DNA of 64,000 nucleotides from Acetobacter vaccinii (GTDB lineage: Bacteria > Pseudomonadota > Alphaproteobacteria > Acetobacterales > Acetobacteraceae). Positions 2,889 to 18,914 of this stretch are shown in pieces (within the stretch, counting starts at the first letter, position 1; each line of letters begins with the position of its first letter). The notes beneath the pieces are model-generated. The model saw nothing but the letters and a program-made list of their open reading frames with translations. It was not told the DNA's origin and ran no database searches. The stretch lies in assembly GCF_008365315.1 (NCBI RefSeq), contig NZ_CP043506.1, positions 2,345,001 through 2,409,000 of the forward strand. The letters are read 5' to 3'. A program made the position numbers and the translations under genes.

Positions 2889-3006
2889 ACCTGGTGGCTA
2901 TGGCGGGGCGTGTTCCACCCGATCCCATCCCGAACTCGGCCGTGAAAAACCCCAGCGCCTATGATACTGCGGCTTAAGCCGCGGGAAAGTCGGTCGCCGC
3001 CAGGTC
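2889..3006 (+). rRNA. rrf: 5S ribosomal RNA
   Basis: Follows 23S by about 110 bases. The closing stem is formed by CCTGGTGGC at the 5' end and GCCGCCAGG at the 3' end. The internal CGATCCCATCCCGAACTCGG block is diagnostic of 5S rRNA. Ends are accurate to a few bases. Confidence 0.96.
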
Positions 3007-3037
3007 TTCCAAACCACCCTATCAATACATCCTCACC

Positions 3038-3125
<88 letters not shown>

Positions 3126-3140
3126 TAAAATCAATTTGTT

Positions 3141-3163
3141 AGCCCGCTCACAGAGCGGGCTTT
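3141..3163 (+). terminator. Intrinsic terminator after tRNA-fMet
   Basis: Stem AGCCCGCTC / GAGCGGGCT followed by TTT, 27 bases after the tRNA CCA. Probable end of the rrn transcript. A near-identical hairpin follows the truncated tRNA copy at 28264-28286. Confidence 0.85.
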
Positions 3164-3182
3164 CTGCGTTCTGCTCCACGCG

Positions 3183-3585: not shown

Positions 3586-3756
3586 TCAGCCGTGACAGGC
3601 GCATCCGGCATGGTGGCATCCGGCTCCATCCTTGTGATGCGTCGCGCAGGCTTCGTCACAATAGATGCGACCATCTTTCTCGACGCCGTTGTTAACGCTG
3701 ACCACGCACACGCAGTCTGGGCAGGCACATTTTACGGATTCAACGGTAACGCTCAT
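3586..3756 (-). CDS. smtA: Bacterial metallothionein (SmtA/BmtA family), 56 aa
   Basis: A small Cys/His-rich protein that would sequester zinc (and cadmium or copper) in thiolate clusters in the cytoplasm. The translation starts MSVTVESVKCACPDCVCVV and ends GCHHAGCACHG. It has nine cysteines, in CxCxxCxC, YCxxxC and GCxxxGCxC arrangements typical of cyanobacterial SmtA and Pseudomonas BmtA, and the family's central IYCDEAC element. Length fits the family (about 55 aa). Its ATG overlaps the stop of the SmtB-like repressor gene by four bases (ATGA), so the two are one translationally coupled operon, preceded by AAGGAG. The repressor and its operator make de-repression by excess zinc likely. It lies right beside a zinc-starvation regulon, which is an unusual pairing. 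Confidence 0.88.
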   Translation of the reverse strand: MSVTVESVKCACPDCVCVVSVNNGVEKDGRIYCDEACATHHKDGAGCHHAGCACHG

Positions 3757-4079
3757 GGGTCTTCTCCTTCGGTAATGGCTTCGTCCACGTCATGCGGTTC
3801 AGTGACGTGTTCGATCATGTTGGTCAGCATCTGCCGGACATGACAGTCCGGCAGGTCATAGAACACCTGCTTGCCGTGACGTGTGCCTTTGAGCAGACGC
3901 GCACTGCGGAGCAGACGGAGATGATGCGACGTCAATGAAGGACTGAGGTCCAGCGTGTCCGCAATATCTCCAACGCTCATGGGCTGAGAGAGGCATGATG
4001 CGACAATCCGCAAGCGGTTCGGATCGCCAAGGAGGCGGAACATTTCTCCGAGTTCAGTGGCATGATCAGCAGTCAGCAT
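3753..4079 (-). CDS. ArsR/SmtB-family zinc-sensing repressor
   Basis: Winged-helix metalloregulator of 108 aa. Core HTH around residues 37-62 (SVGDIADTLDLSPSLTSHHL). The C-terminal alpha5 helix carries Asp78, His80, His91 and Glu94. This has exactly the DxH-x10-HxxE spacing of the Synechococcus SmtB alpha5 zinc site (D104, H106, H117, E120), so zinc (or cobalt) sensing is the best guess. The start at 4079 is chosen because the candidate operator lies immediately upstream. A longer in-frame start would place coding sequence over the operator. It is co-transcribed with the metallothionein gene through an ATGA overlap. By family logic it represses its own operon and is released from DNA by excess zinc. 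Confidence 0.85.
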   Translation of the reverse strand: MLTADHATELGEMFRLLGDPNRLRIVASCLSQPMSVGDIADTLDLSPSLTSHHLRLLRSARLLKGTRHGKQVFYDLPDCHVRQMLTNMIEHVTEPHDVDEAITEGEDP

Positions 4080-4093
4080 CGTTATTCCCAAAC

Positions 4094-4114
4094 ACATGAA
4101 CATGTATTCATATA
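4094..4114. promoter_or_regulatory. ArsR/SmtB-type operator
   Basis: Imperfect inverted repeat ATGAACA-TG-TATTCAT with an AT-rich flank, closely resembling the 12-2-12 operators of SmtB, ZiaR and CzrA (TGAACA...TATTCA). It sits 15 bases upstream of the repressor ATG on the minus strand, where it would block the promoter. Binding is inferred from the motif match. Confidence 0.7.
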
Positions 4115-4203
4115 TCGGTGTGAGGAGAGGGGTGCAAGCATTTTCGTCATAGGAATGATGGCGGAAAGCCGGAAAGAGGAAATGACGACGCGCGCGCCGC
4201 CGC

Positions 4204-5937
4204 TCACTGTGATGGAGCGAAAACCTGAAGATCAATCGTCACAGGATGGCGTTCCTGTAGCGTGATCCGATGCGTGACGGACACAATTGTTACTGACGGG
4301 ATATGGTCGCGCAGGAGGTCATAGAGCTGGTTTTCAGAAGCGGCATCAAGATTCGATGTCGATTCATCCAGAAACACCCATGCCGGCTGGTTCAGCAGGA
4401 CGCGACCAAACATCAGACGTTGCTGCTCTCCCGGCGACAGCCGTTCAGCCCATCTGGCCTCGGTATCCCGATCATCGATCAGGGCCGACAGGCCGACCTG
4501 CGCGAGGACGGAGTAAAGACGATCATCGGAAACGGTCTCGGGGGAGCGGGGATAGCATAGGGTGGCGCGCAGGGTTCCAAGAGGAAGGTATGGGCTTTGC
4601 GGAACGAACATCATCTCCTCCGCAGGCAGTCGTATTGTGCCGCTGGTGAACGGCCAGACACCGGCGAGCGTGCGTAAAAGAGTCGATTTTCCGAGACCTG
4701 ATGGCCCTAACAGGACAATATCATGTCCTTTGGGCAATGTTATGTTTACCGACGACAGAAGCACCGAATCATCCGGACGGTATATATCCAGATTATCAGT
4801 CACAATGTCGCACACGGTCGGCGTAATGTCGCGCGTGGTTTTCCCGATGCCGACGGACGCACGATCCATCGTGCGCTGGAAAGTGGCCAGACGAGTGACA
4901 TTGGCCCGCCACTCAGTAAGTGACGCGTAGGAGGACCAGATCCATCCGAGTGCGTCCTCGACGCGGGAAAAAGCCTGCACAAGCTGCATCAGCGTACCGA
5001 AGGTGATCTTGCCAGCGAAATAGCGGATTGATCCGACGAGAAGAGCAAAATTTCCTGATAATGTTCCCAGACCATCCGTCAGGAATCCAAGCCATTTGGC
5101 GCGTTTCATAATCCCGAGGCAGTTGTCGTAGATGACGTCGAATTTCCCGATCAGAAGACGCTTCTCATGATTGGCCCCATCACTGAGAGCGATGCTGGCC
5201 GCGTGATCGCGGATATGAACCAGACTGTACCGGAAGTCGGCTTCCGCTTTCTGCTGGGCGATCCGCAGTGGAATCAGGCGACGACCCGTCAGATGCGTGA
5301 CGGCCGACGCAAAGAGAGAATAAAGAAGGGCGATCCACAGGAAATAGCCTGGGATACGCACGCCGAATATCGAGATCGCACCTGACAGCACCCAGAGTAG
5401 GCCGACATAGCTGAACAAAGTGACAAGCCGTGACACGATGTCGAGGAACTGTGCCAAGGTGTCGCGCACGAAACCGTCGATATCTTCCTGGATGCGCTGA
5501 TCGGGATTATCGCCAACAGCGGTCAGACCGGTTTCCTCTATGGCAATCCGGAAAGCGACGTTCTGGTCAAGCCACTGACTGACCATACGATGTGTGAGCC
5601 AGCGCCGCCAGCGCAGTTGCAGCAATTGTTGCAGGTAGGTGGCGTACACCGCCGCCAGCAGGGTAGGAACGGCGATGATGAAGAAGCCGGGGATCAGCAT
5701 CGTCGGGGTGCGAACGAACCAGAACAGACCACGCAGGAAGGATGTGACGTCCCGCTGCTGCAGCGCGGTATAGAAAATATTCCGCGAAAACGATTGCAGC
5801 ACATCCGCTCCCACGAGCAGAAGGGTCAGCCCCAGTACGACGCCAAGCAAACCCCACGCAGACTTTCGTTCATCCGAGGTGAAATAGGGGCGGCTCAGGT
5901 ACCAGAGATCCGCGAGAGCAGCGCCTAGTCCTCTCAT
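4204..5937 (-). CDS. YddA/SbmA-like ABC transporter, fused permease-ATPase
   Basis: 577-residue half-transporter. An N-terminal SbmA/BacA-like membrane domain (several hydrophobic segments between residues 25 and 320) is followed by an ATP-binding domain with Walker A GPSGLGKST (about residue 413), signature LSPGEQQR and Walker B WVFLDES. The family (YddA, Rv1819c, ABCD-type) moves peptides, cobalamin or other bulky hydrophilic compounds. Direction and substrate cannot be read from sequence. The ATG overlaps the thrS stop by four bases (ATGA), making it the fourth gene of the DUF1826-zur-thrS operon and so probably zinc-repressed. A role in acquiring a metal-ligand complex or cobalamin during zinc shortage is speculation from context. 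Confidence 0.85.
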   Translation of the reverse strand: MRGLGAALADLWYLSRPYFTSDERKSAWGLLGVVLGLTLLLVGADVLQSFSRNIFYTALQQRDVTSFLRGLFWFVRTPTMLIPGFFIIAVPTLLAAVYATYLQQLLQLRWRRWLTHRMVSQWLDQNVAFRIAIEETGLTAVGDNPDQRIQEDIDGFVRDTLAQFLDIVSRLVTLFSYVGLLWVLSGAISIFGVRIPGYFLWIALLYSLFASAVTHLTGRRLIPLRIAQQKAEADFRYSLVHIRDHAASIALSDGANHEKRLLIGKFDVIYDNCLGIMKRAKWLGFLTDGLGTLSGNFALLVGSIRYFAGKITFGTLMQLVQAFSRVEDALGWIWSSYASLTEWRANVTRLATFQRTMDRASVGIGKTTRDITPTVCDIVTDNLDIYRPDDSVLLSSVNITLPKGHDIVLLGPSGLGKSTLLRTLAGVWPFTSGTIRLPAEEMMFVPQSPYLPLGTLRATLCYPRSPETVSDDRLYSVLAQVGLSALIDDRDTEARWAERLSPGEQQRLMFGRVLLNQPAWVFLDESTSNLDAASENQLYDLLRDHIPSVTIVSVTHRITLQERHPVTIDLQVFAPSQ

Positions 5938-7811
5938 GTGCCAAAGACCTGGGACAGGCGGGAGCGGGAGGCGTCAGCCAGCAGGTTGATGGCCGTTTCC
6001 ATAGCTATTGTTGGTGCATCCGGGTTTCCATACTCCCGGATGGAGACGGTTCCCGCCTGCGCTTCTTTCTTCCCGACGATCAGCAGTACGGGTACTTTCG
6101 CGAGACTGTGTTCACGGATCTTATAGGCAATTTTCTCGTTACGCAGATCGGGTACCACGCGGATGCCAAGCTGGCGGAGTGCTTTGATCAGATCGTCCGC
6201 GTAATCGTCTGCGGCGGCGGTGATTGTCGCCACAACGACCTGAACGGGAGCGAGCCAGAAGGGCAGATGGCCGGCATGGTGTTCAAGGAGAATGCCGATG
6301 AAACGTTCCAGCGAACCGAACAGGGCGCGGTGCAGCATGACGGGCGGATGCTTGTCCCCATCCGCGCCGACATAATGCGCGTCCAGACGCTGAGGCAGAT
6401 TGAGATCGACCTGCACGGTACCGCACTGCCAGTCTCGTCCGATTGCATCACGCAGTACGAATTCCAGCTTGGGGCCGTAAAAGGCGCCTTCCCCCGGATT
6501 GCGCGTGTAGGAAAGGCCCGAAGCTTCGACCCCGCGCCGTAACGCGTCCTCTGAGCGATCCCAGATCTCGTCCGATCCGACACGTTTTTCGGGCCGGTCG
6601 GAGAATTTGATACGGACATCGTTGAAGCCAAAATCTTTATAGATCGAAAGCACGAGATGGCAGATCCGCTGCGTCTCAGCTTCCATCTGCTCCGGCGTGC
6701 AGAAAATATGCGCGTCATCCTGCGTAAATGCCCGCACGCGCATGAGGCCATGCAGCGCCCCTGACGGTTCGAAGCGGTGGACCTTGCCGAATTCAGCCAT
6801 CCGCAGGGGCAGGTCACGATAACTCTTCAGGCCATGACGGAAAACCTGCACACCACCAGGGCAATTCATAGGTTTGAGAGCATAGGTGCGGCCTTCGGTT
6901 TCGGTGGTGAACATGTTCTCCCCGAATTTTTCCCAGTGGCCGGAAGCCTGCCAGAGAGACAGATCCATAATGTCGGGCGTATTGATCTCTACATAGTTCT
7001 CGTCCTGCTGGCGCGCGCGTAAATAAGCAAGAAGCGCCTGGAACAGTGTCCAGCCGTTTGGATGCCAGAATACTGCTCCCGGTGCTTCAGGCTGGAAATG
7101 GAACAGATCCATCTCACGCCCGAGACGGCGATGATCACGGCGTGCCGCTTCTTCCTGGCGCTGCTCCCACGCCGCAAGTTCGTCCGCATCACGACAGGCC
7201 GTGCCATGAATCCGCTGTAGCATCGGATTGTTCCGGTCACCTTTCCAGTAGGCACCGGCTGTGCCGAGAAGCCGAAAGGCGTGTCCGATCTGCTCGGTGC
7301 TAGCGAGATGTGGCCCCCGGCAGAGATCGACGAAGTTGCCCTGTCGGTAAAAGTTCAGGATAGCATCAGCAGGTAGGGACCGGATGATCTCCGCCTTGTA
7401 GGGCTGTCGGTTCTCCTGACACCAGGCAAGTGCGCTCTCACGCGTCCATTCTTCCCGGATGATCGCTTCGTCCCGATCGACAATCTCGTGCATACGGGCT
7501 TCGATCCGCACGAGATCATCATCTGTGAAAGGGCGCTCAACAGCGAAGTCATAGAAAAATCCCTGCTCCGTGGCTGGTCCTGTCGCAAGGGCGGTGCCGG
7601 GAAAGAGTTCGCTGACGGCCTGCGCCAGAACATGGGCGGTGTCATGCCGGATCAGGGAAAGCGCATCGGCGTCCGACCGGAAAACAGGCTCAGAAGGTCG
7701 GTCGCCTGACATGATTGCCGAAAGGTCGGAGAGAGCGCCGTCCACACGCCGGGCGAGAACGTCCTTTGGAGAATGTGATGCGGAACGGGAAGCGATGGTG
7801 GTCGATGACAT
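5934..7811 (-). CDS. thrS: Threonyl-tRNA synthetase paralogue with truncated TGS domain
   Basis: Charges tRNA-Thr. The editing domain is intact (His56/His60 in RHDTAH; Cys and His in VDLCRGPH). The class II core keeps all three catalytic zinc ligands (Cys of MNCPG, His of QDDAHIF, His of MLHRALFG), so it is not a zinc-free enzyme. The N-terminus is shorter than usual: only the second half of the TGS domain is recognisable (VDGALSDL then ADALSLIRHD). Start 7811 is preferred. An alternative ATG at 7856 overlaps the zur stop (ATGA) and adds 15 residues without restoring TGS. Zur-controlled second ThrRS genes are known in other bacteria, where they back up the housekeeping enzyme in low zinc. The housekeeping thrS should lie elsewhere in the genome. 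Confidence 0.9.
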   Translation of the reverse strand: MSSTTIASRSASHSPKDVLARRVDGALSDLSAIMSGDRPSEPVFRSDADALSLIRHDTAHVLAQAVSELFPGTALATGPATEQGFFYDFAVERPFTDDDLVRIEARMHEIVDRDEAIIREEWTRESALAWCQENRQPYKAEIIRSLPADAILNFYRQGNFVDLCRGPHLASTEQIGHAFRLLGTAGAYWKGDRNNPMLQRIHGTACRDADELAAWEQRQEEAARRDHRRLGREMDLFHFQPEAPGAVFWHPNGWTLFQALLAYLRARQQDENYVEINTPDIMDLSLWQASGHWEKFGENMFTTETEGRTYALKPMNCPGGVQVFRHGLKSYRDLPLRMAEFGKVHRFEPSGALHGLMRVRAFTQDDAHIFCTPEQMEAETQRICHLVLSIYKDFGFNDVRIKFSDRPEKRVGSDEIWDRSEDALRRGVEASGLSYTRNPGEGAFYGPKLEFVLRDAIGRDWQCGTVQVDLNLPQRLDAHYVGADGDKHPPVMLHRALFGSLERFIGILLEHHAGHLPFWLAPVQVVVATITAAADDYADDLIKALRQLGIRVVPDLRNEKIAYKIREHSLAKVPVLLIVGKKEAQAGTVSIREYGNPDAPTIAMETAINLLADASRSRLSQVFGT

Positions 7812-7852
7812 GGGAGAACCTTGACGAAGAAGGGCGATGAGAGGGCAGCGGC

Positions 7853-8359
7853 TCATTTGGGGGCGCGTGTCGGAAGATCGTTCTGTTGGGGGCGTTGCAA
7901 CGCGGACGAGAAAGAAGGACACGTACTGCACTGCGCGCAGACGCCCTGCACTTCCATCACCCGGTGCCTGACCTGGAATCCAAGGGTCTCGGCTGCGCTG
8001 TCGATCTGCTGGCACGATGACGTGGTTTCCACCGCCTGAGCGGCACCACATCGATCGCAGATACAGTAGACGAGGCGCGACGGATCGCCTGTCCGGATCC
8101 GCACGAAGGCATTTCGACTTTCGAGCCGCCCGACGAGCCCGTCAGCGATCAGCTTTTCCAGGGCTCTATAAATTGTAGGCGGGGCAACGCGACGGCGATC
8201 CGGATGACTGACACACCGGAGGATATCATAAGCCGATAACGGCAAATCTGTCTTAGTCAGCGCGTCGAGCACATCACTCAGCAAAGAGGTGGTCCGGCCA
8301 TTTGGGGTATTGGAAACCTGATGGACGCCGCGAGAAGGGTGCGTGACATGTTCTTTCAT
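7853..8359 (-). CDS. zur: Zur, Fur-family zinc uptake regulator
   Basis: 168 residues with the Fur fold: N-terminal winged helix (DILRCVSHPDRRRVAPPTIY with YRAL recognition region) and a dimerisation domain holding two CxxC pairs, CDRCG and CAQC, for the structural zinc. Fur proper would not be expected in this setting. The family assignment as Zur rests on the neighbouring COG0523, thrS, hisI and gamma-CA genes and on the Zur-type palindrome at 9101-9117. Start ATG overlaps the DUF1826 stop (ATGA). It lies in the operon it probably controls, so it is likely autoregulated: zinc-bound Zur represses both divergent operons. Confidence 0.88.
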   Translation of the reverse strand: MKEHVTHPSRGVHQVSNTPNGRTTSLLSDVLDALTKTDLPLSAYDILRCVSHPDRRRVAPPTIYRALEKLIADGLVGRLESRNAFVRIRTGDPSRLVYCICDRCGAAQAVETTSSCQQIDSAAETLGFQVRHRVMEVQGVCAQCSTCPSFSSALQRPQQNDLPTRAPK

Positions 8360-9063
8360 CGGGAAACCGTATCCATCACAAGGATTGGCCCCGGAATCGC
8401 ACCGTTTGGGTCACTGGCCGGGAGACGATGGAGGCAGCCAGGTTCGCCTTCAGCAGCTCCCTTGATAAACGCAACGGCGAAAGGCGACAGGGTACTGACG
8501 ATGCCGCTCTTCGGGTCCTGATTGCTGCACCATTCCGCCCCAGTGCGCCCATAGCCGCAGATCAGCCTGAGCGCATCAGGAGGAAGCTCGAATATTGCAT
8601 CACTACTGAGGGAGGCCATCAGTCGGATGTGCTGTCGGATGCCTCCCGTCAAAGCAGCGAACAGAGAGGATAGATCCACGACATCCGTCAGAATGACGGG
8701 AGGCCAATCCTGAAGCACAGCCGGGGTTGCAAGGTAATCCGCGATCTCCGAAGGCATGCCGGTGAGAGTGAGAGGAGACGGGGAGCCCGACCAGCCTGTG
8801 ACCGACTTCTCCCAAGCTGCTGGCACCCTGCGGCCCCATACGACCATATCAACATCGGGCCGTTGCAGATCCATCACGACGGCCGCGTGGGAACAGGCGA
8901 CTACATGGGGTGTGGGACAGCCAAGAGCGGCGTCTTCTGGTGTATCGACTTTCGCTGCGGGCCAACTCTCCATGAACAGCATGACACCGGGACTCTCCTG
9001 CGGCGCACGCGCTGACAGGGGCATGTTCATTGAGACGGGATGTTGCTGTGTGGAAGACGGCAT
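8356..9063 (-). CDS. DUF1826 family protein of the Zur regulon
   Basis: 235 residues, function unknown. The C-terminal half shows the family pattern LRLICGYGRTGAEW, a V-FIKG element, LHRLPAS and a final ILVMD strand. DUF1826 genes are often found beside COG0523 GTPases and Zur in Proteobacteria, which fits here. The Cys/His/Asp cluster that I recall just before the LRL strand in other members is replaced here (IFELPPDALRL), so a metal-binding function may have been lost; this comparison is from memory. It is the first gene of the leftward operon, 37 bases from the Zur palindrome. The ATG at 9063 has a poorly spaced ribosome binding site. Met12 or Met14 are possible alternatives. Confidence 0.72.
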   Translation of the reverse strand: MPSSTQQHPVSMNMPLSARAPQESPGVMLFMESWPAAKVDTPEDAALGCPTPHVVACSHAAVVMDLQRPDVDMVVWGRRVPAAWEKSVTGWSGSPSPLTLTGMPSEIADYLATPAVLQDWPPVILTDVVDLSSLFAALTGGIRQHIRLMASLSSDAIFELPPDALRLICGYGRTGAEWCSNQDPKSGIVSTLSPFAVAFIKGAAEGEPGCLHRLPASDPNGAIPGPILVMDTVSR

Positions 9064-9100
9064 GGCTCCAGCGCTTGACGAGAGGTGGGCGATGTTCGTA

Positions 9101-9117
9101 ATGTTATATTATAACAT
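9101..9117. promoter_or_regulatory. Zur box between divergent operons
   Basis: Perfect 17-base palindrome ATGTTATATTATAACAT (odd centre), matching the TGTTATA-n-TATAACA type Zur operators of Alphaproteobacteria. It lies 37 bases from the DUF1826 start and 29 bases from the folE start, so one bound Zur dimer pair would shut both promoters. The flanking AACAT extends the right arm. Motif recognition is from sequence. Occupancy is inferred. Confidence 0.88.
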
Positions 9118-9146
9118 AACATAGTCAATGTCGGGACGAGGGTTGA

Positions 9147-9758
9147 ATGGACACACTGATTGAAACGCCCCGGAAAATGCGGGCACGCCCGACACGGGCT
9201 CAGGCAGAAGAAGCCGTACGGACTCTGCTTGCCTGGACTGGTGATGATCCCGATCGCGAGGGGCTGGTCGGCACGCCCGATCGCGTGGTGCGGGCCTATG
9301 AGGAGTTTTTCGAGGGGTATCAGGATGATCCGGTTGCTCTTCTGGAGCGGACCTTCGCAGAGACCGGAAACTACAATGAAATGGTGGTACTGCGCGACAT
9401 CCGGCTGGAATCCCATTGTGAACATCATATCATTCCACTGATTGGTAAGGCGCATGTGGCTTACCTGCCTGACAGGCGGGTGGTCGGCATCAGCAAGCTG
9501 GCGCGTCTTGTAGACGTCTTCGCCCATCGCCTTCAGATTCAGGAAAAACTGACAGCCCAGATCGCCGACACGATCCAGAGCGTTCTGCAGCCGCGCGGCG
9601 TTGCGGTCGTGATCGACGCGGCGCACCAGTGCATGACCACACGTGGGGTGCATAAGCCGGGCGTGAGCATGGTCACCAGTCGCCTGCTAGGCGAGTTCGA
9701 GACCTCGGAACCCTTACGTCGCCAGTTCTTCGCTATGGCGGGAATAGGGGGCGTATGA
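9147..9758 (+). CDS. folE: GTP cyclohydrolase I (FolE1 type)
   Basis: Converts GTP to 7,8-dihydroneopterin triphosphate, first step of folate (and pterin) synthesis. 203 aa, normal length. The zinc ligands of the classical enzyme are all present: Cys91 and His94 in SHCEHH and Cys162 in [13 protein letters not shown]. So this is the zinc-dependent type, not the metal-flexible FolE2 that many Zur regulons carry. It is the first gene of the rightward operon, with GAGGG upstream of the ATG and the Zur palindrome before that. Its stop overlaps hisI (ATGA). A Zur-controlled extra copy of a zinc enzyme would raise its level or give a higher-affinity version in low zinc. That is inference. Confidence 0.93.
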
Positions 9759-10264
9759 TGGGCGAAGCTCTCCCTTCTGCATCAACAGCGTTCCAACCTC
9801 GTGTCTCTATCGAGCAGGTCGAGGAAGGAACCGATCTCGCCCCGCGTTTCGACGTCAGGGGACTGCTGACCGTGGTCACGACGGACGCAGAGAGTGGGGA
9901 TGTGATGATGGTCGGCGTCATGAACGCCGAGGCGCTCGCCCTCACCATCGAAACCCGCGAGGCGCATTACTGGAGCCGAAGTCGCCAGTGCCTCTGGAGG
10001 AAAGGGGCTACGAGCGGGCTGATCCAGCATGTCATCGAAATGCGGATCGACGACGATCAGGACGCGGTCTGGTTGCGCGTGCGCACTGCGGGCACAGGAG
10101 CGAACTGCCATGTGGGTTATCGAAGCTGTTTTTACCGGCGTGTCGATCTCCCTGCTGATGAAGTCGTTTCGGCGTCATTGGCTGAACTCGTCTTTTGCGA
10201 AACGCACAAGACCTTCGATCCGGTCGTCGTCTATGGCGACGTCCCGAACCCGACGCAGCTCTAG
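9755..10264 (+). CDS. hisI: Phosphoribosyl-AMP cyclohydrolase paralogue (HisI2-like)
   Basis: Third step of histidine synthesis, opening the PR-AMP ring. Family core is clear: [37 protein letters not shown], and [13 protein letters not shown]. In standard HisI the first of three catalytic zinc cysteines lies in a DCD motif. Here it reads Asp99-Asp100-Asp101, so that cysteine is replaced by Asp100, while Cys118 and Cys125 and the magnesium aspartates remain. Loss of zinc ligands is described for Zur-regulated HisI paralogues (Haas and co-workers, COG0523 comparative genomics). The N-terminal extension of about 30 residues is unusual. It overlaps folE by ATGA, and the COG0523 gene follows 13 bases later. 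Confidence 0.9.
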
Positions 10265-10277
10265 AGGAGAAACACCT

Positions 10278-11507
10278 ATGGACAACAGGCTTCCCGTCAC
10301 CGTGCTGTCCGGCTTTCTGGGCGCGGGCAAGACGACCCTGCTCAATCATGTTCTGAATAACCGCCAGGGCTATAAGGTCGCGGTCATCGTAAATGACATG
10401 AGCGAGGTCAATATCGACGCCGATCTGGTGCGAGAGGGCGGCAGCAATCTGTCGCGCACCGATGAGAAGCTGGTCGAAATGACCAATGGCTGCATCTGCT
10501 GCACCCTGCGCGATGATCTGTTGCAGGAAGTGCGGCGGCTCGCGGAGGAGCGGAAATTCGATTATCTGCTCATTGAATCCACAGGCATCGCAGAACCGCT
10601 GCCTGTCGCTGCGACGTTCGAATTCCGTGACGAGAATGATGTCAGCCTGAGCGATATCGCACGGCTGGATACGATGGTGACCGTCGTGGACGCGGTCAAT
10701 CTCCTGCGCGACTATTCCTCCAGCGACTTCCTGAAGGATCGGGGCGAAACAGCCGGGGAGGACGACGAGCGCGCTCTGGTCGATCTGCTTGTCCAGCAGA
10801 TCGAGTTTGCCGATGTCGTGGTCATCAACAAAGTCTCCACCGCCACGCCGGATCAGGTGGACGCGGCGCGGAAGATCATTCGTGCGCTGAATGCGGACGC
10901 CGACATCATTGAGACCGATATGGGACGGGTTCCTGTTGAACGGATCCTGAATACCGGTCGCTTCGATTACGACAAGGCGCACCAGCATCCGTTGTGGTTC
11001 AAGGAACTTTACGGGTTTGCCAATCATGTTCCTGAAACAGACGAATATGGCATCCGCAATTTCGTCTACCGGGCGCGGCGTCCGTTCGAGCCCGCGAAAT
11101 TCCAGGCCTTTCTTGACCGGAACTGGCCGGGTGTCGTGCGCGCCAAAGGTCATTTCTGGCTGGCCACGCGCCCGGACTGGGTAGGAGAAATGAGTCAGGC
11201 CGGAGCCCTTGTGCGGAGCGAAGCAATGGGGTTGTGGTGGGCCGCGATACCGAAAAACCAGTGGCCGGACAGCGATCAGTGGCGGGATTTTGTTCTGGGG
11301 AACTGGGATTCCGTCTATGGCGACCGGCGGCAGGAAATCGTCTTCATCGGCACGGCGGAGATGGATGAAGCAAGACTGTGCCGGGATCTTGACGCCTGTC
11401 TTGTGCCGGATCTTGGAGATACTCCTTTCGAGCCGTCACGCTACGCACGACTGCCCGATCCTTTTCCGGTCTGGCGTCGCCAGTCGGAAAGTCTTGAACC
11501 GGCCTGA
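10278..11507 (+). CDS. COG0523 (CobW/ZigA-type) metal-chaperone GTPase
   Basis: 409 residues. G3E-family GTPase with Walker [10 protein letters not shown] (12-20), the metal-binding GCICC motif (71-75), ESTGIAEP and the NKxS base-specificity element, then a CobW C-terminal domain from about residue 285. COG0523 members under Zur deliver zinc to selected enzymes during starvation (the ZNG1/ZigA role). A cobalt role as in CobW is not supported, since no cobalamin genes are nearby. Start ATG at 10278 follows GAGGAGA with good spacing. An upstream in-frame extension overlapping hisI is rejected. Adjacent FolE, HisI and the other enzymes are natural client candidates, which is inference. Confidence 0.93.
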
Positions 11508-11545
11508 TCGCGCAATCACACGTCATTCCTAAGGACTCTATTTCC

Positions 11546-12709
11546 ATGAAAACCCGAGCTGCCATTGCGTGGGAACCTAACATGCCGCTTGAGATCGATC
11601 TGGTTGATCTCGAAGGCCCGAAAGACGGTGAGGTTCTGGTTCGTATCGTGACCACGAGCCTGTGTCATACAGATATGTTCACCCTGTCAGGGCATGATCC
11701 GGAAGGACGCTTTCCGTGTATTCTCGGCCACGAAGGGGTGGGTATCGTCGAGGATGTGGGCAAAGGCGTGACCTCTGTTGCCCCGGGGGATCATGTCATT
11801 CCGCTCTATATTCCCGAAGACCCGAACTGCCCGATGATCCGCTCGGGCAAGACCAATCTTTGCTCGACCATCCGCGAGACACAGGCGCTCGGGCTGATGC
11901 CCGACGGCACCAGCCGTTTTTCATACAAGGGCCGCCAGATCTTTCATTACATGGGCACCAGCACGTTCAGCGAATACACCGTGTTGCCCGAAATTGCTGT
12001 GGCGAAGATCACCAAAGATGCGCCGCTTGCCAAAGCCAGCGTCATGGGGTGCGCCGTCCCGACAGGCATGGGCGCCGTGCGGAACGCCGCGAAGGTGGAA
12101 GCGGGCTCGACCGTGGCTGTCTTTGGTCTCGGCGCGATCGGTATGGCTGTTATACAGGGCGCTGTCATGGCTGGCGCTTCCCGGATCATCGGCATCGACA
12201 CCAATCCGGCGAAGTTTCTGCTGGCCCGAAATCTGGGTGCCACCGATCTTGTTAATCCGACCGATCATACCGATCCGATCCAGAAGGTGATCATCGAGAT
12301 GACGGGTGGCGGGGTGGATTATTCCTTCGAGGCGATCGGTCGCGTCGATGTCATGCGCGCGGCCCTTGAGTGCTGCCATAAAGGCTGGGGTGAATGCACG
12401 GTCATCGGTGTTGCCGGGGCTGGCGAGGAGATCTCGACGCGGCCTTTCCAGTTGATCACGGGGCGCGTCTGGCGGGGCACGGCTTTTGGGGGCGTAAAAG
12501 GGCGTTCGCAGTTACCCGGCATGGTCGATGAATGGCTTGCGGGCAAGTTCAGCGTTGATCCCTACATCACCCACAACATGACGCATGACCGGATCAATAC
12601 GGCATTTGATCTTCTTCATCGGGGAGAGGCCATTCGCTCTGTCATGCACTATCAGCCGGGCGAAACCCTGTCGAATGACCTGCCCGGCGAAATTCTGGCC
12701 GATCTTTAA
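11546..12709 (+). CDS. Class III alcohol dehydrogenase paralogue with degraded structural zinc site
   Basis: Zinc-dependent MDR dehydrogenase, 387 aa, most similar in pattern to S-(hydroxymethyl)glutathione dehydrogenase (FrmA/AdhC): [40 protein letters not shown] and [13 protein letters not shown]. Catalytic zinc ligands Cys40, His62 and Cys169 are kept. The structural zinc lobe, normally four cysteines in CxxCxxC-x7-C, reads Asp92, Cys95, Ile98, Cys106, so two of the four ligands are gone and this zinc is probably not bound. It lies between the COG0523 gene and gamma-CA in the Zur operon. A formaldehyde- or aldehyde-detoxifying enzyme needing one zinc fewer per subunit is the simplest reading. 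Confidence 0.9.
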
Positions 12710-12720
12710 GGAGACGAAAC

Positions 12721-13287
12721 GTGGCTATGCTGAGACCCAATCCGCGTGGTGATTTCCCCGTAGTTTCTGAAAGCGCCTTTGTCGACCCGACCGCGATCCT
12801 TTGCGGTCATGTGATTGTCGAGGACGATGTCTTCATCGGCCCCTATGCCGTTATTCGTGCCGATGAAGCCGATGAAAATGGCCATGTCGAGCCCATCCGG
12901 ATCGGGAGTGGATCGAACATTCAGGATGGTGTTGTCATCCACTCGAAAGATGGTGCGGCCGTGACAATCGGATCGCGCACTTCAATCGCCCATCGCTCGA
13001 TCATTCACGGTCCCTGCACCGTGGGAGACGAGGTATTCATCGGATTCAATTCCGTGATCTTCAACTGCACGGTCGAGCGTGGTTGTGTGGTGAGGCACAA
13101 CTCCGTTGTCGAGGACTGCGTGTTGCCAACGGGTTTTTACATTCCGTCCACAACGACGATTCATTCGAATACGGATCTGCTGACGATCCCGCAGGTCACG
13201 CAGGATGCGACCGCATTTTCTGAAAGCGTCGCGGAGATGAACGTCAGTCTGGCGCGGTCCTATCGACGCATTGCAAACGAACTCTAG
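12721..13287 (+). CDS. Gamma-class carbonic anhydrase (left-handed beta-helix)
   Basis: 188 aa, hexapeptide-repeat beta-helix enzyme interconverting CO2 and bicarbonate. Active-site histidines are in place: VIH in GVVIHSKDG, and two in SIAHRSIIHGPC. Gamma-CAs can use iron or cobalt as well as zinc, and gamma-CA paralogues are recurrent members of Zur/COG0523 clusters. The start is GTG at 12721, set by AAGGAG seven bases upstream. The gene begins 11 bases after the dehydrogenase stop and its 3' end overlaps the next gene. A generic acetyltransferase is a less likely reading given the three histidines. Confidence 0.88.
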   Translation: MAMLRPNPRGDFPVVSESAFVDPTAILCGHVIVEDDVFIGPYAVIRADEADENGHVEPIRIGSGSNIQDGVVIHSKDGAAVTIGSRTSIAHRSIIHGPCTVGDEVFIGFNSVIFNCTVERGCVVRHNSVVEDCVLPTGFYIPSTTTIHSNTDLLTIPQVTQDATAFSESVAEMNVSLARSYRRIANEL

Positions 13288-13843
13288 CCCCTCCGAACAA
13301 GCGAGGCGTTTGAGCAGGTCGGCATGCGTGGTTCTGGTGCTCATGTCCGGGCAACTGGTGTCACCGGGATACGCACAGGAAAAGGAGTTACCTGCTGCAG
13401 TGCGGCAGGTGATTCCTGATGATTGTGTCCATTACCGTCTGAACCCGTCCGGCCGTCTTGCCTTTCGGGTCTGGTCCTTGCCGCCTGCGAGTGACGGACA
13501 CCGTATATGGCTTCTTCCTTGCTCGGTTACTCCTGCCAACACGACGCAGGTGGTCGTCTGGGAAGATCGGACGGGCCACGCGGAGTTACTGATGTTTCGA
13601 CGTTGGGATCAGGATGTGTGGTCTTCGACGCCTTACCTGTTCAATGTGACCTATGACGAACGAACGGGTGTTTTGACCTCCTTGTACAGGGAGGATGCCT
13701 TGGGCGATTGCGGCACATGGACGGTCTGGCGTGCCGACTGGGGCCACTTCATCATGCGAAGCCTGGAAGCCAAGACGGTATGTGATGGACATGAAGGTCC
13801 ATACCGTCTGATTTATTCTTCAGAAGGAGATCATCCGTCATGA
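13271..13843 (+). CDS. Exported DUF1176-family protein
   Basis: 190 residues, unknown function. N-terminal signal peptide (RRLSRS then a hydrophobic run, cleavage near GYAQ) followed by the C-terminal half of a DUF1176 domain: DDCVHYRL, LLPCSV, TYDERTG, LGDCGTWTVW and a final CDG. Four cysteines suggest two disulfides in the periplasm. It is shorter than typical DUF1176 proteins (around 350 aa). It overlaps gamma-CA by 17 bases and cysS by ATGA, so it is co-translated with the zinc genes. The start is TTG at 13271. A GTG at 13328 would remove the positive n-region of the signal peptide and is less likely. Confidence 0.72.
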   Translation: MQTNSSPSEQARRLSRSACVVLVLMSGQLVSPGYAQEKELPAAVRQVIPDDCVHYRLNPSGRLAFRVWSLPPASDGHRIWLLPCSVTPANTTQVVVWEDRTGHAELLMFRRWDQDVWSSTPYLFNVTYDERTGVLTSLYREDALGDCGTWTVWRADWGHFIMRSLEAKTVCDGHEGPYRLIYSSEGDHPS

Positions 13844-15276
13844 CGCAGACAGGCGACGGCCAGAAGAATGCTCACCCTCTGCGGCTCACGAACACACTGT
13901 CTGGCAGCAAGCAGATTTTCGTACCGCGTGATCCGAACCGGGTCACGATGTATGTCTGTGGACCGACCGTCTATAACTACGCCCATCTTGGGAATGCGCG
14001 TTCGGCTGTAGTTTTCGATCTGCTGTATCGTATTTTACGACACTCCTACGGATGTGTCCTGTACGCCCGTAATTTCACCGATGTCGACGATAAGATCAAC
14101 GCCGAGGCGGTCCGCACGGGGCAACCGATCGGGGCGATCACCGATCGGTTTATCAGTGCCTATCATGCTGACATGGCGGCTCTCGGTGTTCTGCGGCCAG
14201 ATTTCGAGCCGCGTGTGACGGAGCACCTCTCCGACATCATCGCCCTGATCGACCGGTTACTTGAAGCAGGTCATGCCTATCAGGCGGCGGGACATGTTCT
14301 GTTCCACGTCCCGTCCTTCGCCGATTATGGCCGACTGTCGGGGCGGAGCCGCGAGGATGTCATTGCGGGAGCGAGAGTGGAGGTTGCGCCGTTCAAACGT
14401 GACCCGGCCGATTTTGTTCTATGGAAGCCGTCCTCGGATGACGCGCCGGGCTGGGAAAGTCCGTGGGGGCGGGGACGGCCTGGATGGCATATTGAATGCT
14501 CCGTAATGACGGAGCATTGTCTCGGTCTGCCGATCGATCTTCATGGCGGCGGTCAGGATCTGATTTTTCCGCATCATGAAAATGAGATCGCACAGAGTGT
14601 GAGCGCGCGAAACGGTGCTGCTTATTGCGATTTTTGGGTGCATAATGGCTTCGTTACCGTTGACGGGCGCAAAATGTCGAAGTCTCTCGGAAATGTTGTT
14701 CTCGCGCACGATCTTCTGAAACGCCACGATGGTCAGACGATCCGCCTTGCTCTTCTGTCCGCCCATTACCGCCAGCCCCTAGACTGGTCAGATAAACTTC
14801 TGACAGGGTCAGGTCGTGCGCTTTCACGTCTGAAGCGTCTGCTGGCGGACACAGTTGCGCCGGATGATGGGGATGCGGTGGAGGCGATCAGCCACAATCC
14901 TGTTGTCCTGGCCCTGGAAGACGATCTCAATACGCCGATGGCGCTCAGCGGGCTTTTCGGGATTGCCCGCAAACTTCGCCACACTGACCCCGGCGAGAAA
15001 CGCTCTCGGTTGAGACATGAACTCGTTGCCGCGTTATCACTGCTGGGCCTCGACCTCGAGAACGACGGTTTGGAAATCAGACGTCATGGGATCAATGCAA
15101 CACATGATGCGGTCGTGGCGGATATGGTGGCGCAACGTGATGCGGCGCGTCGTCGGAAAGATTATGAAGAAGCGGATCGTCTACGCGCTGCGTTGCAGGT
15201 GCAGGGTGTCGCCCTCGACGACACGCACGAAGAGACGCGGTGGGTGATGACTCGGCCTTCTTCTGATTACCCCTGA
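13840..15276 (+). CDS. cysS: Cysteinyl-tRNA synthetase paralogue
   Basis: 478 aa class I synthetase charging tRNA-Cys. HIGH motif as HLGNAR, KMSKS present (GRKMSKSLGN). Zinc ligands of the E. coli enzyme are conserved: Cys in YVCGPTVYN, Cys in GWHIECS, His and Glu in FPHHENE. So zinc binding is retained although the gene is in the Zur operon. The usual C-terminal tRNA-binding region is present but compact. It is the last gene of the seven-gene rightward operon, with an ATGA overlap with the DUF1176 gene. Second CysRS genes under Zur are known from COG0523 neighbourhoods. A housekeeping copy is expected elsewhere, which the window cannot show. Confidence 0.92.
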   Translation: MTQTGDGQKNAHPLRLTNTLSGSKQIFVPRDPNRVTMYVCGPTVYNYAHLGNARSAVVFDLLYRILRHSYGCVLYARNFTDVDDKINAEAVRTGQPIGAITDRFISAYHADMAALGVLRPDFEPRVTEHLSDIIALIDRLLEAGHAYQAAGHVLFHVPSFADYGRLSGRSREDVIAGARVEVAPFKRDPADFVLWKPSSDDAPGWESPWGRGRPGWHIECSVMTEHCLGLPIDLHGGGQDLIFPHHENEIAQSVSARNGAAYCDFWVHNGFVTVDGRKMSKSLGNVVLAHDLLKRHDGQTIRLALLSAHYRQPLDWSDKLLTGSGRALSRLKRLLADTVAPDDGDAVEAISHNPVVLALEDDLNTPMALSGLFGIARKLRHTDPGEKRSRLRHELVAALSLLGLDLENDGLEIRRHGINATHDAVVADMVAQRDAARRRKDYEEADRLRAALQVQGVALDDTHEETRWVMTRPSSDYP

Positions 15277-15917
15277 AAGTCTTACCTGCGTGGAGTGGTC
15301 ACCGCGAGAACAAAGGCGGCGGCGGTTGCAAAACCATGCGCGAAAGACGTCATTCAGAAGACTCTGGCCGGACGGGGCTGTTAGAAGCAGTTTTGGGGTG
15401 TCTGATGGCGGCGCACCGGACGGCGTCGCCGATGCCATTTTTCGATAGAGTCTTCTTAAGCGACGCAACGGCGCGCGCACTCATGACCGTTCCGAGAAGC
15501 GCGATACGGATCGTCATGGCATGAATTACACCGGCATCATTGGCTAAGCGACTGATCTCAATGAAGCCCCGCGCACCATGAGCTACAGTCACCATCAGGC
15601 CGTATAACTCAACTGCACCTTCGCTGGCGCCGAGTGCCTCGAATGGCATGATCGCATGACCGATGAGTACAGGTTCGACCCGCTCACCGGGAACTTTCTT
15701 CCGGTCGATCTCTTCGATAAAGCCGTGACAACACGTTCGTGGAGATCCAGAGACAATGTGCGTGATGACATCTACAACCGGCCCCTATCTCGGCTGTCAT
15801 CTTGAATCAGATCATCACCAATTTTGGAATCCCAACCGATTCATTCAGCGCAGAAAACGCTCTAGTTGCCATTTCCCTGTGATTGCCAGAAAAACAAAAA
15901 TCATCTTAAATCGGCTT
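15277..15917. other. Gap after the Zur operon, possible transposase scrap
   Basis: No supported gene over about 640 bases. On the minus strand around 15640-15755 a frame reads LSLDLHERVVTAL, which resembles the start of IS630-family transposases, but it does not continue convincingly. The upstream frame of the next gene is open here (from 15756) but lacks a ribosome binding site and family support. GC falls sharply from about 15800 onward. Confidence 0.3.
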
Positions 15918-17066
15918 ATGGGTAGTTTTTCACTGGATGAGACGCGCCAAAACGCACTACGAGCAATCTCTCCTATAGAGAAGTTGCAGGTGCCTTCGCG
16001 CAGTTCTGGAAAGCTGGTCGTGTTTAGGGGAATACCTTCCCACGATTACTACCTCGTTTTCTTTCTGTTCGTAGATCTTCTTGGTTTCAAATATTTAGGC
16101 CCATTTGAGAAGGTCGCATACATTATCCAGCTTGATTTCGAAGGACAACAATACAGCATTGTATACGCAAAGTTTGGAATGCGAATTGAATGTTCCGAAG
16201 GTGGTAATCCAGAGGCTGTCTATGCAGCGGTAAAGAGGGGAATTAAAGCTGCAAGACCTTACTACCTTTGGCGAGCAAAAGAGGCGTCCACTACTTCTAA
16301 CCTAAACCTTGAATCAAAGTGCCCTCAGCTTTGGGAGAAGTACGTTTTCCTAAAAGAGCAAAGTAAAATGCTCTTGGAAAAATTTGAATCCGAAAAAGAA
16401 AATCGTGTCGTAGAAAAAGGCTACGATGAAGAAGGCTCTTTAAATTGGACTACAATTTCTTTTCCTGCTTATGACTTTCGTAAGCAATCAGTTTGGCTGC
16501 ATGAAACCGCTGTAGATGCATTCTTCTGCTGGTGTGAGCAAGCTCTTGTCCATATTGCGGTCCTGATGTGTAAATTGACGACTGGAAAGGAAATCGCTGA
16601 TTTGCTTCGACGCGAATTTGGAGAAAAGTGCAAATTAGTTTTCGACCTATCAGTCTCTGATGACAAGTTAGTTTATGATGAAATTTTGGACTTGAGAACT
16701 GAATTGCGTAACTACGTCGCACACGGATCCTTTGGAAAAGATGGTTCGACTTTTCAGTTTCACTCGCGTGTTGGCTCGGTACCTCTGAAAATATTGGACA
16801 ACGACAATCGTTCCGAATTTCGGTTTGGAACTTATAACGTGAGGAACTGGGAGAATGACTATGCGCGAATAGAGCGTTTCCTGAGCCAACTGTGGTCAAT
16901 GGGTAGAGGGCCGGCAAGACAATACCTCGAAACTGGATTCCCATGCGTTCTCACGCTCGCAACGGATGGAACATATCAGCAGGCGATGAAAAGCGACGAA
17001 GAAATGGGGAAATTTATCGAGGTCTGGGCCCACATGATTGATGACTCAGCCAATATGGACTTTTGA
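15918..17066 (+). CDS. Orphan protein with HEPN-like RxxxxH motif
   Basis: 382 residues from the ATG at 15918. I do not recognise the family. Visible features are a charged, largely soluble sequence; a Trp/Cys-rich helical segment at about 190-225 (WLHETAVDAFFCWCEQALVH); and LRTELRNYVAHG at residues 260-270. There Arg264-x4-His269 matches the HEPN Rx4-6H active-site pattern, preceded by helices that predict HEPN-like packing. HEPN RNases occur in toxin-antitoxin, abortive-infection and CRISPR-linked systems, so a defence role is possible but unproven. It is AT-rich compared with the zinc genes and ParB, which suggests recent acquisition. An open frame extends upstream to 15756 without a good start. 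Confidence 0.5.
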   Translation: MGSFSLDETRQNALRAISPIEKLQVPSRSSGKLVVFRGIPSHDYYLVFFLFVDLLGFKYLGPFEKVAYIIQLDFEGQQYSIVYAKFGMRIECSEGGNPEAVYAAVKRGIKAARPYYLWRAKEASTTSNLNLESKCPQLWEKYVFLKEQSKMLLEKFESEKENRVVEKGYDEEGSLNWTTISFPAYDFRKQSVWLHETAVDAFFCWCEQALVHIAVLMCKLTTGKEIADLLRREFGEKCKLVFDLSVSDDKLVYDEILDLRTELRNYVAHGSFGKDGSTFQFHSRVGSVPLKILDNDNRSEFRFGTYNVRNWENDYARIERFLSQLWSMGRGPARQYLETGFPCVLTLATDGTYQQAMKSDEEMGKFIEVWAHMIDDSANMDF

Positions 17067-17388
17067 ATTTCTTTTCCTTGCATCTCTACTATTAGGTCGG
17101 AACGCAGCATCAGTCGGGTCTCGCACCACATGATAGATGGCTGTTTTCGGGAGTTTAGAGCCTGTTCGGAAAATTATGGGTGAGCATTTCAGCGTATGAG
17201 ATTGGCATCCGTGGATCCGTGGCGACGAAGATCGTGGCCGGTAACGCGGAAATCGTTATTCCGACTAGCGGTTCGTTTCCTGCATAGCGAACATGAGGTA
17301 ATCAGTATTTTTCAGATACTTGATTGCAGATAATATCTAAATATAAATTTATTCCAATTATTAATATATAAAAAGGGATATGTGTTCG
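17067..17388. other. AT-rich intergenic region
   Basis: No gene seen. From about 17280 the sequence becomes very AT-rich (TATCTAAATATAAATTTATT and TTAATATATAAAAAGG), a plausible promoter for the orphan gene at 17389. The block GAGCCTGTTCGGAAAATTATGG at 17158 has the look of a transposon end, but no partner end was found. Confidence 0.3.
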
Positions 17389-18696
17389 ATGAGCTTTAAA
17401 AAGCACTTTAAAGAAATTGGTCTAGCCTATCTCGGGGCGATTGAGGGGGCCGTCGGGTGCCCAATCGATGCAAATTATACTGGCAAAACCTATTTGATAT
17501 CCGATTTGAATGCCACCTTGCAAAGGTTCTACAGTGAGTGGTCTACAGAGAGCATTTCTGTCCGTTATGGTGAAGTGATAGATAAAAATATAGGTGGTGA
17601 AGATAAAAGCATAGGTAATTTAAATTCTGCAGCTTCTATTGATAATGGATTGAGAGAAAAGTGCAGAGATGATCCTGGTATTTTTTTAATAATGAACTTG
17701 AAAGATATAGAAAAAATCAGATCTTTGTTGATGTTTGCAGATGCGATATTTTTTTGGGACCCTTTTGAGGAGACATTTTCCCAGAAAAATCAAATTGATA
17801 GTGGTGTTGCTGGGTTGGGATTGTCTTTACTCGCACCGGTAAGATCCCTAATTGCAGAAGGATTATTAATTCCTGCACAAATTGGAATGACAAAATCATC
17901 TGAAAGTGAACAAGCGGAAGGCGTAGAATTTGATTCGCAACTGATGTGGCAAGGAGCTCTTAGCCCTAAAGAATTTGTAAATCGATTAACGGATACTTCT
18001 GAAAAGAAGTATGAATTGTCGGTTCCTGAAGGAATATTGGCGGCCAAAGGATACCGGGGGCATGCTGAAAACAAAATGGCAAGTTTAATTATGCCAGATG
18101 TTGTTATCCCAGTAATGGATTATGAAAGTATTTCTAAATATGAGGAATTTTGTAAAAATTCTGATCGTCATTTAACATATCGAGAATTAGAATATATTTA
18201 CCAAAGCCTTCCTTTTGAAACAGGTTTCATTCTTGATCCAACTAAGCTCACCAATGAAATTCTTTTGGATCTTCGTGAAAGAGATAGCATTTTTTGTGCA
18301 ATGCGAACGGCTATTCTAACTGCTATAGAAAATTATGAAAAACATATTGGCGAGGACGACGCTGCAAAGTTCATACAAGAGTTCAATGTTGAAATACAGT
18401 TGGCGTTTAGAGAACTGAAAGAAAAGGCTTTAGTCTCAAATACATGGAAAGAGTATGTAGATGAAAGTCGTTCATTTTCCACTCGTTTCCTTGCGAAATC
18501 AATACCTAATTTAGTAAACGGAACAGTTATCTCTGATATGATGGAGTCACTGACAAACTCTGGAATCACATCAATTGGCAATGTATTGGCTGCTTCATTG
18601 AAGACCTATTCTCGCTATAGAAATACAAAAATTTTCATGGATGTTGCTGCGTCTATTCGTGAAAGCCACAGTCAAAATGATATAGTGAGAGTTTAA
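17389..18696 (+). CDS. AT-rich orphan protein, unknown function
   Basis: 435 residues from the ATG at 17389 (AAGGG 11 bases upstream; another ATG three codons earlier at 17380 is spaced too closely). No signal peptide or clear membrane segment. The N-terminal half is moderately hydrophobic (LGLSLLAPVRSLI at about 142-154), and the C-terminal 150 residues look helical with many charged residues. No catalytic motif recognised. Base composition is far lower in GC than neighbouring genes, and codons end mostly in A/T, a strong sign of horizontal origin. It follows the HEPN-motif gene at a distance of 322 bases on the same strand, so the two may have entered together. Any shared function is conjecture. 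Confidence 0.55.
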   Translation: MSFKKHFKEIGLAYLGAIEGAVGCPIDANYTGKTYLISDLNATLQRFYSEWSTESISVRYGEVIDKNIGGEDKSIGNLNSAASIDNGLREKCRDDPGIFLIMNLKDIEKIRSLLMFADAIFFWDPFEETFSQKNQIDSGVAGLGLSLLAPVRSLIAEGLLIPAQIGMTKSSESEQAEGVEFDSQLMWQGALSPKEFVNRLTDTSEKKYELSVPEGILAAKGYRGHAENKMASLIMPDVVIPVMDYESISKYEEFCKNSDRHLTYRELEYIYQSLPFETGFILDPTKLTNEILLDLRERDSIFCAMRTAILTAIENYEKHIGEDDAAKFIQEFNVEIQLAFRELKEKALVSNTWKEYVDESRSFSTRFLAKSIPNLVNGTVISDMMESLTNSGITSIGNVLAASLKTYSRYRNTKIFMDVAASIRESHSQNDIVRV

Positions 18697-18914
18697 TAAA
18701 GAAGATGAGCATGAAGAGAAACTATTCTGGCTTTCTCTGATATTTCCTATAGCGGACATTCCGCCTCCCCTCCATTGCCGAAATTTTTCGGCCGATAATA
18801 GGGGGCGGGGTGGCGTGAGTGTAGCAGTCAGAGACAGAGGGCTGCGCGAATTTTCGTGACGGGTTGAGAGGGTAGGGGAGAGTCTCCTATCCGCCCGTCA
18901 TGGAGTTTTTCGCA

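Follow-up and report, generated by a model that had tools for sequence, protein, structure and literature searches.

A zinc-starvation gene block on an integrative element at a tRNA-fMet gene of Acetobacter vaccinii

How did a set of zinc-homeostasis genes come to stand directly behind a ribosomal RNA (rrn) operon of Acetobacter vaccinii, and can such a set move between genomes? The locus lies in a 64,000-nt stretch of contig NZ_CP043506.1 (assembly GCF_008365315.1, a genome of 3.08 Mb in three contigs), which we call the window and to which all coordinates refer unless a contig is named. A preliminary description, made from the letters alone, had placed zinc-excess and zinc-starvation genes between positions 3586 and 15276, close to a tRNA repeat and an integrase gene. 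All the genes it named are found where it had put them, and the zinc-starvation genes form a real, well-bounded block on an integrative element that has probably decayed; related blocks make up a family carried by several vehicles. Our favoured explanation, to which we give a probability of roughly 0.8, is that positions 3070 to 28294 derive from an integrative and conjugative element (ICE) inserted by its integrase at the 3' end of the rrn-linked tRNA-fMet gene, with a zinc-starvation regulon as its main cargo.

Boundaries and backbone of the element

The window begins with 23S and 5S rRNA genes followed by a tRNA-Met(CAT) gene (3038-3114, plus strand) that ends the rrn operon and is the putative integration target; we take it to be the initiator tRNA-fMet, as it had been labelled before. 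The 3' half of this tRNA and the terminator-like sequence behind it (3070-3171, plus strand) recur, by repeat comparison, as a direct repeat at 28193-28294, also on the plus strand. These two attachment repeats are 102 nt long and 94% identical, against the 56 bases noted earlier, and the 45 nt belonging to the tRNA 3' half are the same in both; a second match to this 45-mer appeared in none of 100 shuffled sequences. A tyrosine integrase gene (26841-28115, minus strand) lies beside the distal copy, so that the placement of the block inside an integrated element holds. In the whole genome, window positions 3000-3114 are matched at 100% in five places, own site included, and only at this site and the distal repeat does the match continue more than one base past the tRNA end; the one other rrn-linked tRNA-fMet of A. 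vaccinii that we read is followed by a different terminator.

The relatives of the integrase point to the same target. Counting only matches whose locus sequence was fetched, we examined 30 loci, 23 of them at 55% identity or more, the other seven being six weaker matches and one 66-residue fragment (82%). The 45-nt tRNA-fMet tail stands beside the integrase gene in 19 of the 23 and in none of the seven, and where the tail is present the tRNA 5' half is absent (7-10 of 32 positions match). Judged from coordinates, three of the four misses lie at a contig edge, and in the fourth the gene is broken and no tail is within reach. This integrase family appears, on these loci, to target tRNA-fMet. 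It had also been expected that relatives lacking the block would keep an uninterrupted tRNA. This was found in part: in two relatives (G008 and G002) a complete tRNA runs directly into sequence resembling window positions 28193-28407, and a third (G006) gives a shorter match of its tRNA-joined flank to the window flank, but the resemblance in the first two is only 79-83% and another integrase and tail follow. It may be that this flank forms the left end of an adjacent element and that the sites are not truly empty; either way, the junction of tRNA and flank in these genomes would be the one that the zinc element has split in A. vaccinii. Directly to the right of the distal repeat, positions 28484-32857 hold a FecI-FecR-TonB receptor set, and several other Acetobacter genomes have related sets close to tRNA-fMet tails; they possibly belong to neighbouring elements.

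Behind the zinc genes come two plus-strand genes with no Pfam match and a G+C content of 40.6% (15756-18696), and then the element backbone as recognized by Pfam (18900-25097, plus strand), which consists of a ParB-like gene (18900-20984), a DUF932 gene (21084-22322), a DUF7146/Toprim gene (22768-23847), and an SLOG/YspA gene (24075-25097). A remnant of an IS3-family transposase gene (25692-26309, minus strand) separates the SLOG gene from the integrase gene. The window has two ALIL frameshift pseudoknots with equal scores, one on each strand (26235-26351 and 34129-34245); they show that an IS3-family element is present twice, one copy being cut short within the zinc element. No relaxase or type IV secretion gene was found among the Pfam-scanned genes of the window.

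The same left part of the element, from metallothionein to toprim, occurs in A. fabarum LMG 24244 in two blocks of 96.4% and 99.3% DNA identity, with zinc cluster and backbone in the same order, the two genes without Pfam match included and a 0.55-kb deletion at the gamma-carbonic anhydrase and DUF1176 genes. Beyond toprim, this copy continues into genes for a TraG-like coupling protein, a T2SSE ATPase (TrbB-like), a TrbC-like protein, and LuxI/LuxR; a relaxase was identified in neither the A. vaccinii nor the A. fabarum copy. The A. vaccinii element may accordingly be read, from this comparison, as having once been a conjugative element whose transfer genes are now gone; past transfer by conjugation would fit, and the present copy is probably no longer self-transmissible. 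The LuxI-type autoinducer synthase and LuxR-type regulator are encoded on the A. fabarum element (L117:5371-6738), and quorum control of its transfer is possible. A second A. fabarum element (L118/L119, contig G009:C12) has an integrase 98% identical and a ParB relative at another rrn-linked tRNA-fMet; its cargo comprises HmaA/HmaB/HmaC-type anti-phage defence genes and an AcrB-type pump, and nothing in it matches the zinc block.

Gene content, regulation, and zinc ligands of the block

Within the block, a COG0523 gene, a FUR-family regulator gene, and genes for paralogues of zinc enzymes stand together in two divergent groups around a single Zur-type box. The minus-strand group, read away from the box, comprises genes for a DUF1826 protein (8356-9063; PF08856), a Zur-like FUR-family regulator (7853-8359), a second threonyl-tRNA synthetase (thrS2, 5934-7811), and an ABC transporter whose ABC_membrane_2/SbmA-like part is fused to its ATPase (4204-5937). 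The thrS2 frame is open to 8051, and its start is probably at 7811, as in the annotated copy on an A. pasteurianus plasmid. On the plus strand follow folE for a second GTP cyclohydrolase I (9147-9758), hisI2 for a phosphoribosyl-AMP cyclohydrolase (9755-10264), the gene of a COG0523 (ZigA-type) GTPase (10278-11507, its start taken from annotated relatives), frmA2 for a class III alcohol dehydrogenase (11546-12709), genes for a gamma-class carbonic anhydrase-like hexapeptide protein (12721-13287; Pfam) and a DUF1176 protein (13271-13843; PF06674), and cysS2 for a second cysteinyl-tRNA synthetase (13840-15276). Since neighbours from folE to cysS2 overlap or lie within 40 bp of each other, with starts as listed here, these genes read as one predicted operon, and those from DUF1826 to the ABC gene as another. 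At the tRNA end, on the minus strand, are the zinc-excess genes for a prokaryotic metallothionein (3586-3756; PF02069) and an SmtB/ArsR-type repressor (3753-4082; PF01022). The ABC transporter had been counted among the zinc-starvation functions, a role that its Pfam families (ABC_membrane_2, SbmA/BacA) do not bear out; a ZnuABC-type zinc importer was rejected on these grounds.

Four of the enzymes were searched for in the rest of the genome, as the preliminary description had proposed, and each has a further copy there: ThrRS at 55% identity, CysRS at 48%, HisI at 45%, and FolE at 68%. The possibility that the thrS and cysS genes of the island are the only ones in the genome was therefore rejected, as was a TGA codon suspected of breaking the other cysS, which is the stop of a 464-aa frame.

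The box is an inverted repeat, ATGTTATA-T-TATAACAT, at 9101-9117, which together with an overlapping weaker repeat (9101-9122) lies in the divergent promoter and is predicted to be a Zur site. Compared in eight other loci it keeps its position in all and its sequence in four; the four changed ones are three Gluconobacter loci and A. cibinongensis. It agrees at 11-13 of 15 positions with five Zur sites of Paracoccus denitrificans in the table of PMC5387054, whose sixth, weak site was left out of the comparison. The whole A. vaccinii genome holds only three sites with at most one mismatch, namely the island, C1:1172822, and C1:512855; with up to three mismatches the search gives seven matches per strand, and a reversed-pattern control gives five, so that only the best sites stand out. 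The site at C1:1172822, with one mismatch, lies upstream of another COG0523 gene, whose product is 78% identical to the island copy and which stands about 9.8 kb downstream of the second rrn-linked tRNA-fMet. A weak candidate for another DUF1826 gene, close to the other rrn operon, matches no Pfam family. The perfect site at C1:512855 falls between a TonB-dependent receptor gene and an antiporter-like gene (read by eye), which makes that receptor a candidate zinc receptor. The assignment of the island regulator to Zur comes from a weak FUR match (27.8 bits, slightly over the Pfam cut-off) together with its context. Three FUR-family proteins are encoded in the genome, one of them at C1:586198 near an ABC ATPase gene (read by eye); this protein may be the native Zur, and either of the two could bind the box.

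In the mechanism that we propose, a tyrosine integrase would have inserted the element at the 3' end of the rrn-linked tRNA-fMet. With sufficient zinc, the Zur-type repressor would hold down the divergent promoter at about 9100; under starvation it would lose its zinc and both operons would be made, the COG0523 GTPase would direct the scarce metal to client proteins, and the second ThrRS, CysRS, FolE, HisI, FrmA, and gamma-carbonic anhydrase would top up or replace the housekeeping enzymes. SmtB and metallothionein, at the tRNA end, would buffer zinc excess. Zinc-responsive control and zinc sparing are in this way suggested by gene content and arrangement.

Zinc sparing by loss of the metal site is not common to all these paralogues. 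Taking the zinc-ligand positions in ThrRS2, CysRS2, FolE, HisI2, and FrmA2 to be those we presume, as checked by alignment, ThrRS2, CysRS2, and FolE retain their ligands, and the FolE residues are those of the zinc-dependent type; ligand loss as a general rule was rejected, and replacement is therefore not the mechanism of these three. HisI2 has an Asp in place of one zinc Cys, its motif reading DDDQD, whereas the other HisI copy has DCDGD and the homologue of known structure (PDB 1zps) likewise has Cys there. This Asp is kept in all of the best 120 of 7959 homologues (the query's own entry included), 119 by pattern and one by eye, leaving out a Paracoccus seriniphilus protein that is annotated as HisI and does not read as one. 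FrmA2 has an altered structural-zinc loop: compared with the ECxxCxxC...NLC of canonical class III enzymes, two of the four Cys are gone. Among the best 120 of 7697 homologues (78-92% identical; 117 counted by pattern and three by eye), 118 have two of these Cys, two have one, and none has four. The catalytic motifs CHTD and GHE are present in all 12 plasmid FrmA frames that were read, and the third, as written for the search, in seven. FrmA2 thus aligns as a member of a group of class III alcohol dehydrogenases without at least two of the four structural-zinc cysteines, and both FrmA2 and HisI2 look zinc-frugal from their alignments. The ligand-depleted FrmA2 is the newest point of this analysis, and the two enzymes are the parts most worth testing.

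The company that such FrmA proteins keep bears on a further explanation, in which the frmA operon is a formaldehyde or metal-detoxification island and the zinc enzymes are bystanders. The class III alcohol dehydrogenase itself would suit it, and on two Gluconobacter plasmids (L019 and L020, positions 7600-10000) hxlAB and another frmA gene are found some 4.4 kb away from the zinc cluster, the frmA on L019 having a canonical four-Cys loop. No fghA was found among the genes of the block, however, and six plasmid records with FrmA2 relatives at about 80-82% identity (H4-H9) lead elsewhere: within 6-8 kb around frmA, all five annotated ones have zinc-starvation genes, including DUF1826 in all five, a COG0523-type or unnamed GTP-binding protein in four, and metal or zinc ABC transporters in three, these five being all from Rhodobacterales and not independent of one another. 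By contrast, four control FrmA records picked among H10-H40 all have the four Cys, and fghA adjoins in all three that are annotated. We regard the detoxification explanation as very improbable. If FrmA2 does have one zinc per subunit and HisI2 uses another metal, they would add new cases to the enzymes altered so as to economize on zinc, and the FrmA2 loop could serve as a sequence marker for zinc-starvation gene clusters.

Distribution of the block and its vehicles

The starvation cluster is patchily distributed. At a threshold of E 1e-3, the DUF1826 protein is matched in 20 of 49 Acetobacter genomes: seven at 76% or more (own genome included, and one of them disrupted), five at 41-46%, and eight weakly. 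In a sample of the family, six of 347 genomes pass E 1e-50 in a search of this type. Species genomes, when scanned, yielded 14 loci, five in Acetobacter, one in Novacetimonas, and eight in Gluconobacter, and in all of them the zinc genes follow one order over the length that the locus covers. The block is also matched by 26 plasmid records, seven of which cover at least 59% of it, four from Acetobacter (about 94.5%) and three from Gluconobacter (about 85%). Five of these seven were read, and by their typing one is conjugative, three are mobilizable, and one is non-mobilizable; in A. pomorum pSH1, thrS and the ABC gene are in pieces. The plasmid copies end in frmA remnants (two Acetobacter) or at the gamma-carbonic anhydrase gene (three Gluconobacter). 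The matched plasmid and chromosomal copies occur in food- and insect-associated bacteria; a zinc-starvation adaptation usually treated as a fixed regulon would here be exchangeable cargo.

These plasmids raise the possibility that the zinc block is mainly a plasmid module that recombines by homology into chromosomal elements, the element being a passive host. Their occurrence in both Acetobacter and Gluconobacter speaks for it, as does the identity profile along the block. Compared with A. fabarum, the window is 98.7-100% identical between 3300 and roughly 7800, and beyond 12600 the identity is 100% wherever the two can be aligned; over 7800-9000, across zur and the DUF1826 gene, its identity is 97-99% to A. 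pomorum but 84-96% to A. fabarum. The zinc block is, by this profile, a recombinational mosaic. On the other hand, the block with its two ends, metallothionein and cysS2, is common to two chromosomal elements in place, and the plasmid copies stop short of these ends. We judge the plasmid module to be less likely than not, and it is not exclusive of the ICE-derived element, with which it is compatible.

Several observations weigh against an ICE-derived element with the regulon as its cargo, in addition to the imperfect uninterrupted sites, the weak FUR match and second Zur candidate, the ligands retained by three enzymes, and the second frmA of the Gluconobacter plasmids, all described above. 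In A. fabarum the conjugation genes are degenerate, toprim and TraG lying in one fused frame, and the integrase was not found on the rest of its contig, which ends first. The five plasmid copies read are without cysS2 and without the metallothionein/SmtB pair. The main text of the P. denitrificans zinc RNA-seq study (PMC5387054) names neither alcohol dehydrogenase nor HisI nor DUF1826. Finally, in Novacetimonas hansenii JCM 7643 the stretch from thrS2 through cysS2, its orientation unchanged, lies next to the final 40 nt of a tRNA-fMet, on a 21.7-kb contig with no backbone or integrase match.

The N. hansenii locus suits an explanation in which the zinc cluster, having arrived independently, already stood beside tRNA-fMet when the integrase element inserted, and the repeats enclose both by a chance of order; the other COG0523 gene of A. 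vaccinii, downstream of the second rrn-linked tRNA-fMet, points the same way. It also comes close to the case named in the preliminary description as contrary to its proposal, a cluster at the same tRNA without integrase, but the contig ends inside the tRNA, with the far end open and a distal repeat out of view, and it therefore neither proves nor excludes an element. Moreover, when an element inserts at a tRNA 3' end, genes that already stood there would be expected beyond the distal repeat that it creates, unless they are part of what came in, and A. fabarum has the same cluster and backbone in the same order. An older, independent neighbour seems to us improbable.

The earlier suggestion that a complete zinc package is mobile can be kept for its starvation part, which is patchy in the genus and present on plasmids. 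The excess module was seen beside it only in A. vaccinii and A. fabarum, and the metallothionein/SmtB pair is absent from the five plasmid copies read and from N. hansenii, which also is without the ABC gene; several other Acetobacter contigs end before this region. In a wider reading, zinc frugality would be a trait that can be transferred among acetic acid bacteria: a regulon borne by integrase or plasmid would supply the repressor, a zinc chaperone, and enzymes that are frugal with zinc. Among these enzymes would be FrmA2, as a hitherto unrecognized glutathione-dependent formaldehyde dehydrogenase without structural zinc that belongs to zinc-starvation regulons across the Alphaproteobacteria, and HisI2 with its changed metal site. 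For this wider proposal we judge the odds to be even.

Comparison with known systems

Trb-type ICEs combine a tyrosine integrase, a tRNA 3'-end target, and a ParB/DUF932/toprim backbone. The TraG-, TrbB-, and TrbC-like genes of the A. fabarum relative resemble theirs, whereas the A. vaccinii copy differs in having no recognized conjugation gene.

Zinc-regulon clusters are also well known. Haas et al. 2009 (PMC2770081) described COG0523 clusters with zur, DUF1826, and paralogues of HisI, CysRS, ThrRS, and gamma-carbonic anhydrase under predicted Zur control, one of them on the Klebsiella pneumoniae plasmid pLVPK, and reported the zinc residues of the HisI, CysRS, and ThrRS paralogues as conserved. 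The main text of that paper does not name Acetobacter or Gluconobacter, and the nine enzyme families that it lists include no alcohol dehydrogenase. Compared with these clusters, A. vaccinii adds a ligand-depleted FrmA and HisI, the integrase/tRNA-fMet element, and the metallothionein pair. A review of Zur (PMC6103462) places adhA, adhP, thrS2, and hisI2 in Zur regulons and mentions zinc-free alcohol dehydrogenase paralogues; its available text does not name the class III enzyme. In that of a paper on a rhizobial zinc transporter (PMC12183173), neither alcohol dehydrogenase nor COG0523 is named. Our literature searches found no class III alcohol dehydrogenase or glutathione-dependent formaldehyde dehydrogenase in a Zur regulon (most subscription papers being outside their scope), no alphaproteobacterial Zur regulon with alcohol dehydrogenase and COG0523, and no match for Acetobacter with COG0523; for Acetobacter with an ICE there was no title or abstract match among the matches listed. 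The listed matches for the class III enzyme together with Zur concern FrmR and a variant.

Two islands are further precedents. VSP-II of Vibrio cholerae resembles the A. vaccinii element in having been acquired horizontally and in carrying an integrase together with genes regulated by Zur, but these genes serve chemotaxis and congregation and, as described in the available text of PMC8248653, include no zinc-enzyme paralogues. The ZnGI of Mycobacterium avium paratuberculosis is likewise a lineage-specific island with COG0523 genes, which together with ribosomal-protein paralogues are induced by zinc starvation; it has other enzymes, and its main text (PMC4298942) mentions no integrase. The view that an island of this kind had not been described consequently needs to be narrowed: zinc-starvation clusters, also on plasmids and islands, are already published (pLVPK, VSP-II, ZnGI), and what A. 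vaccinii offers is a variant with a different gene set.

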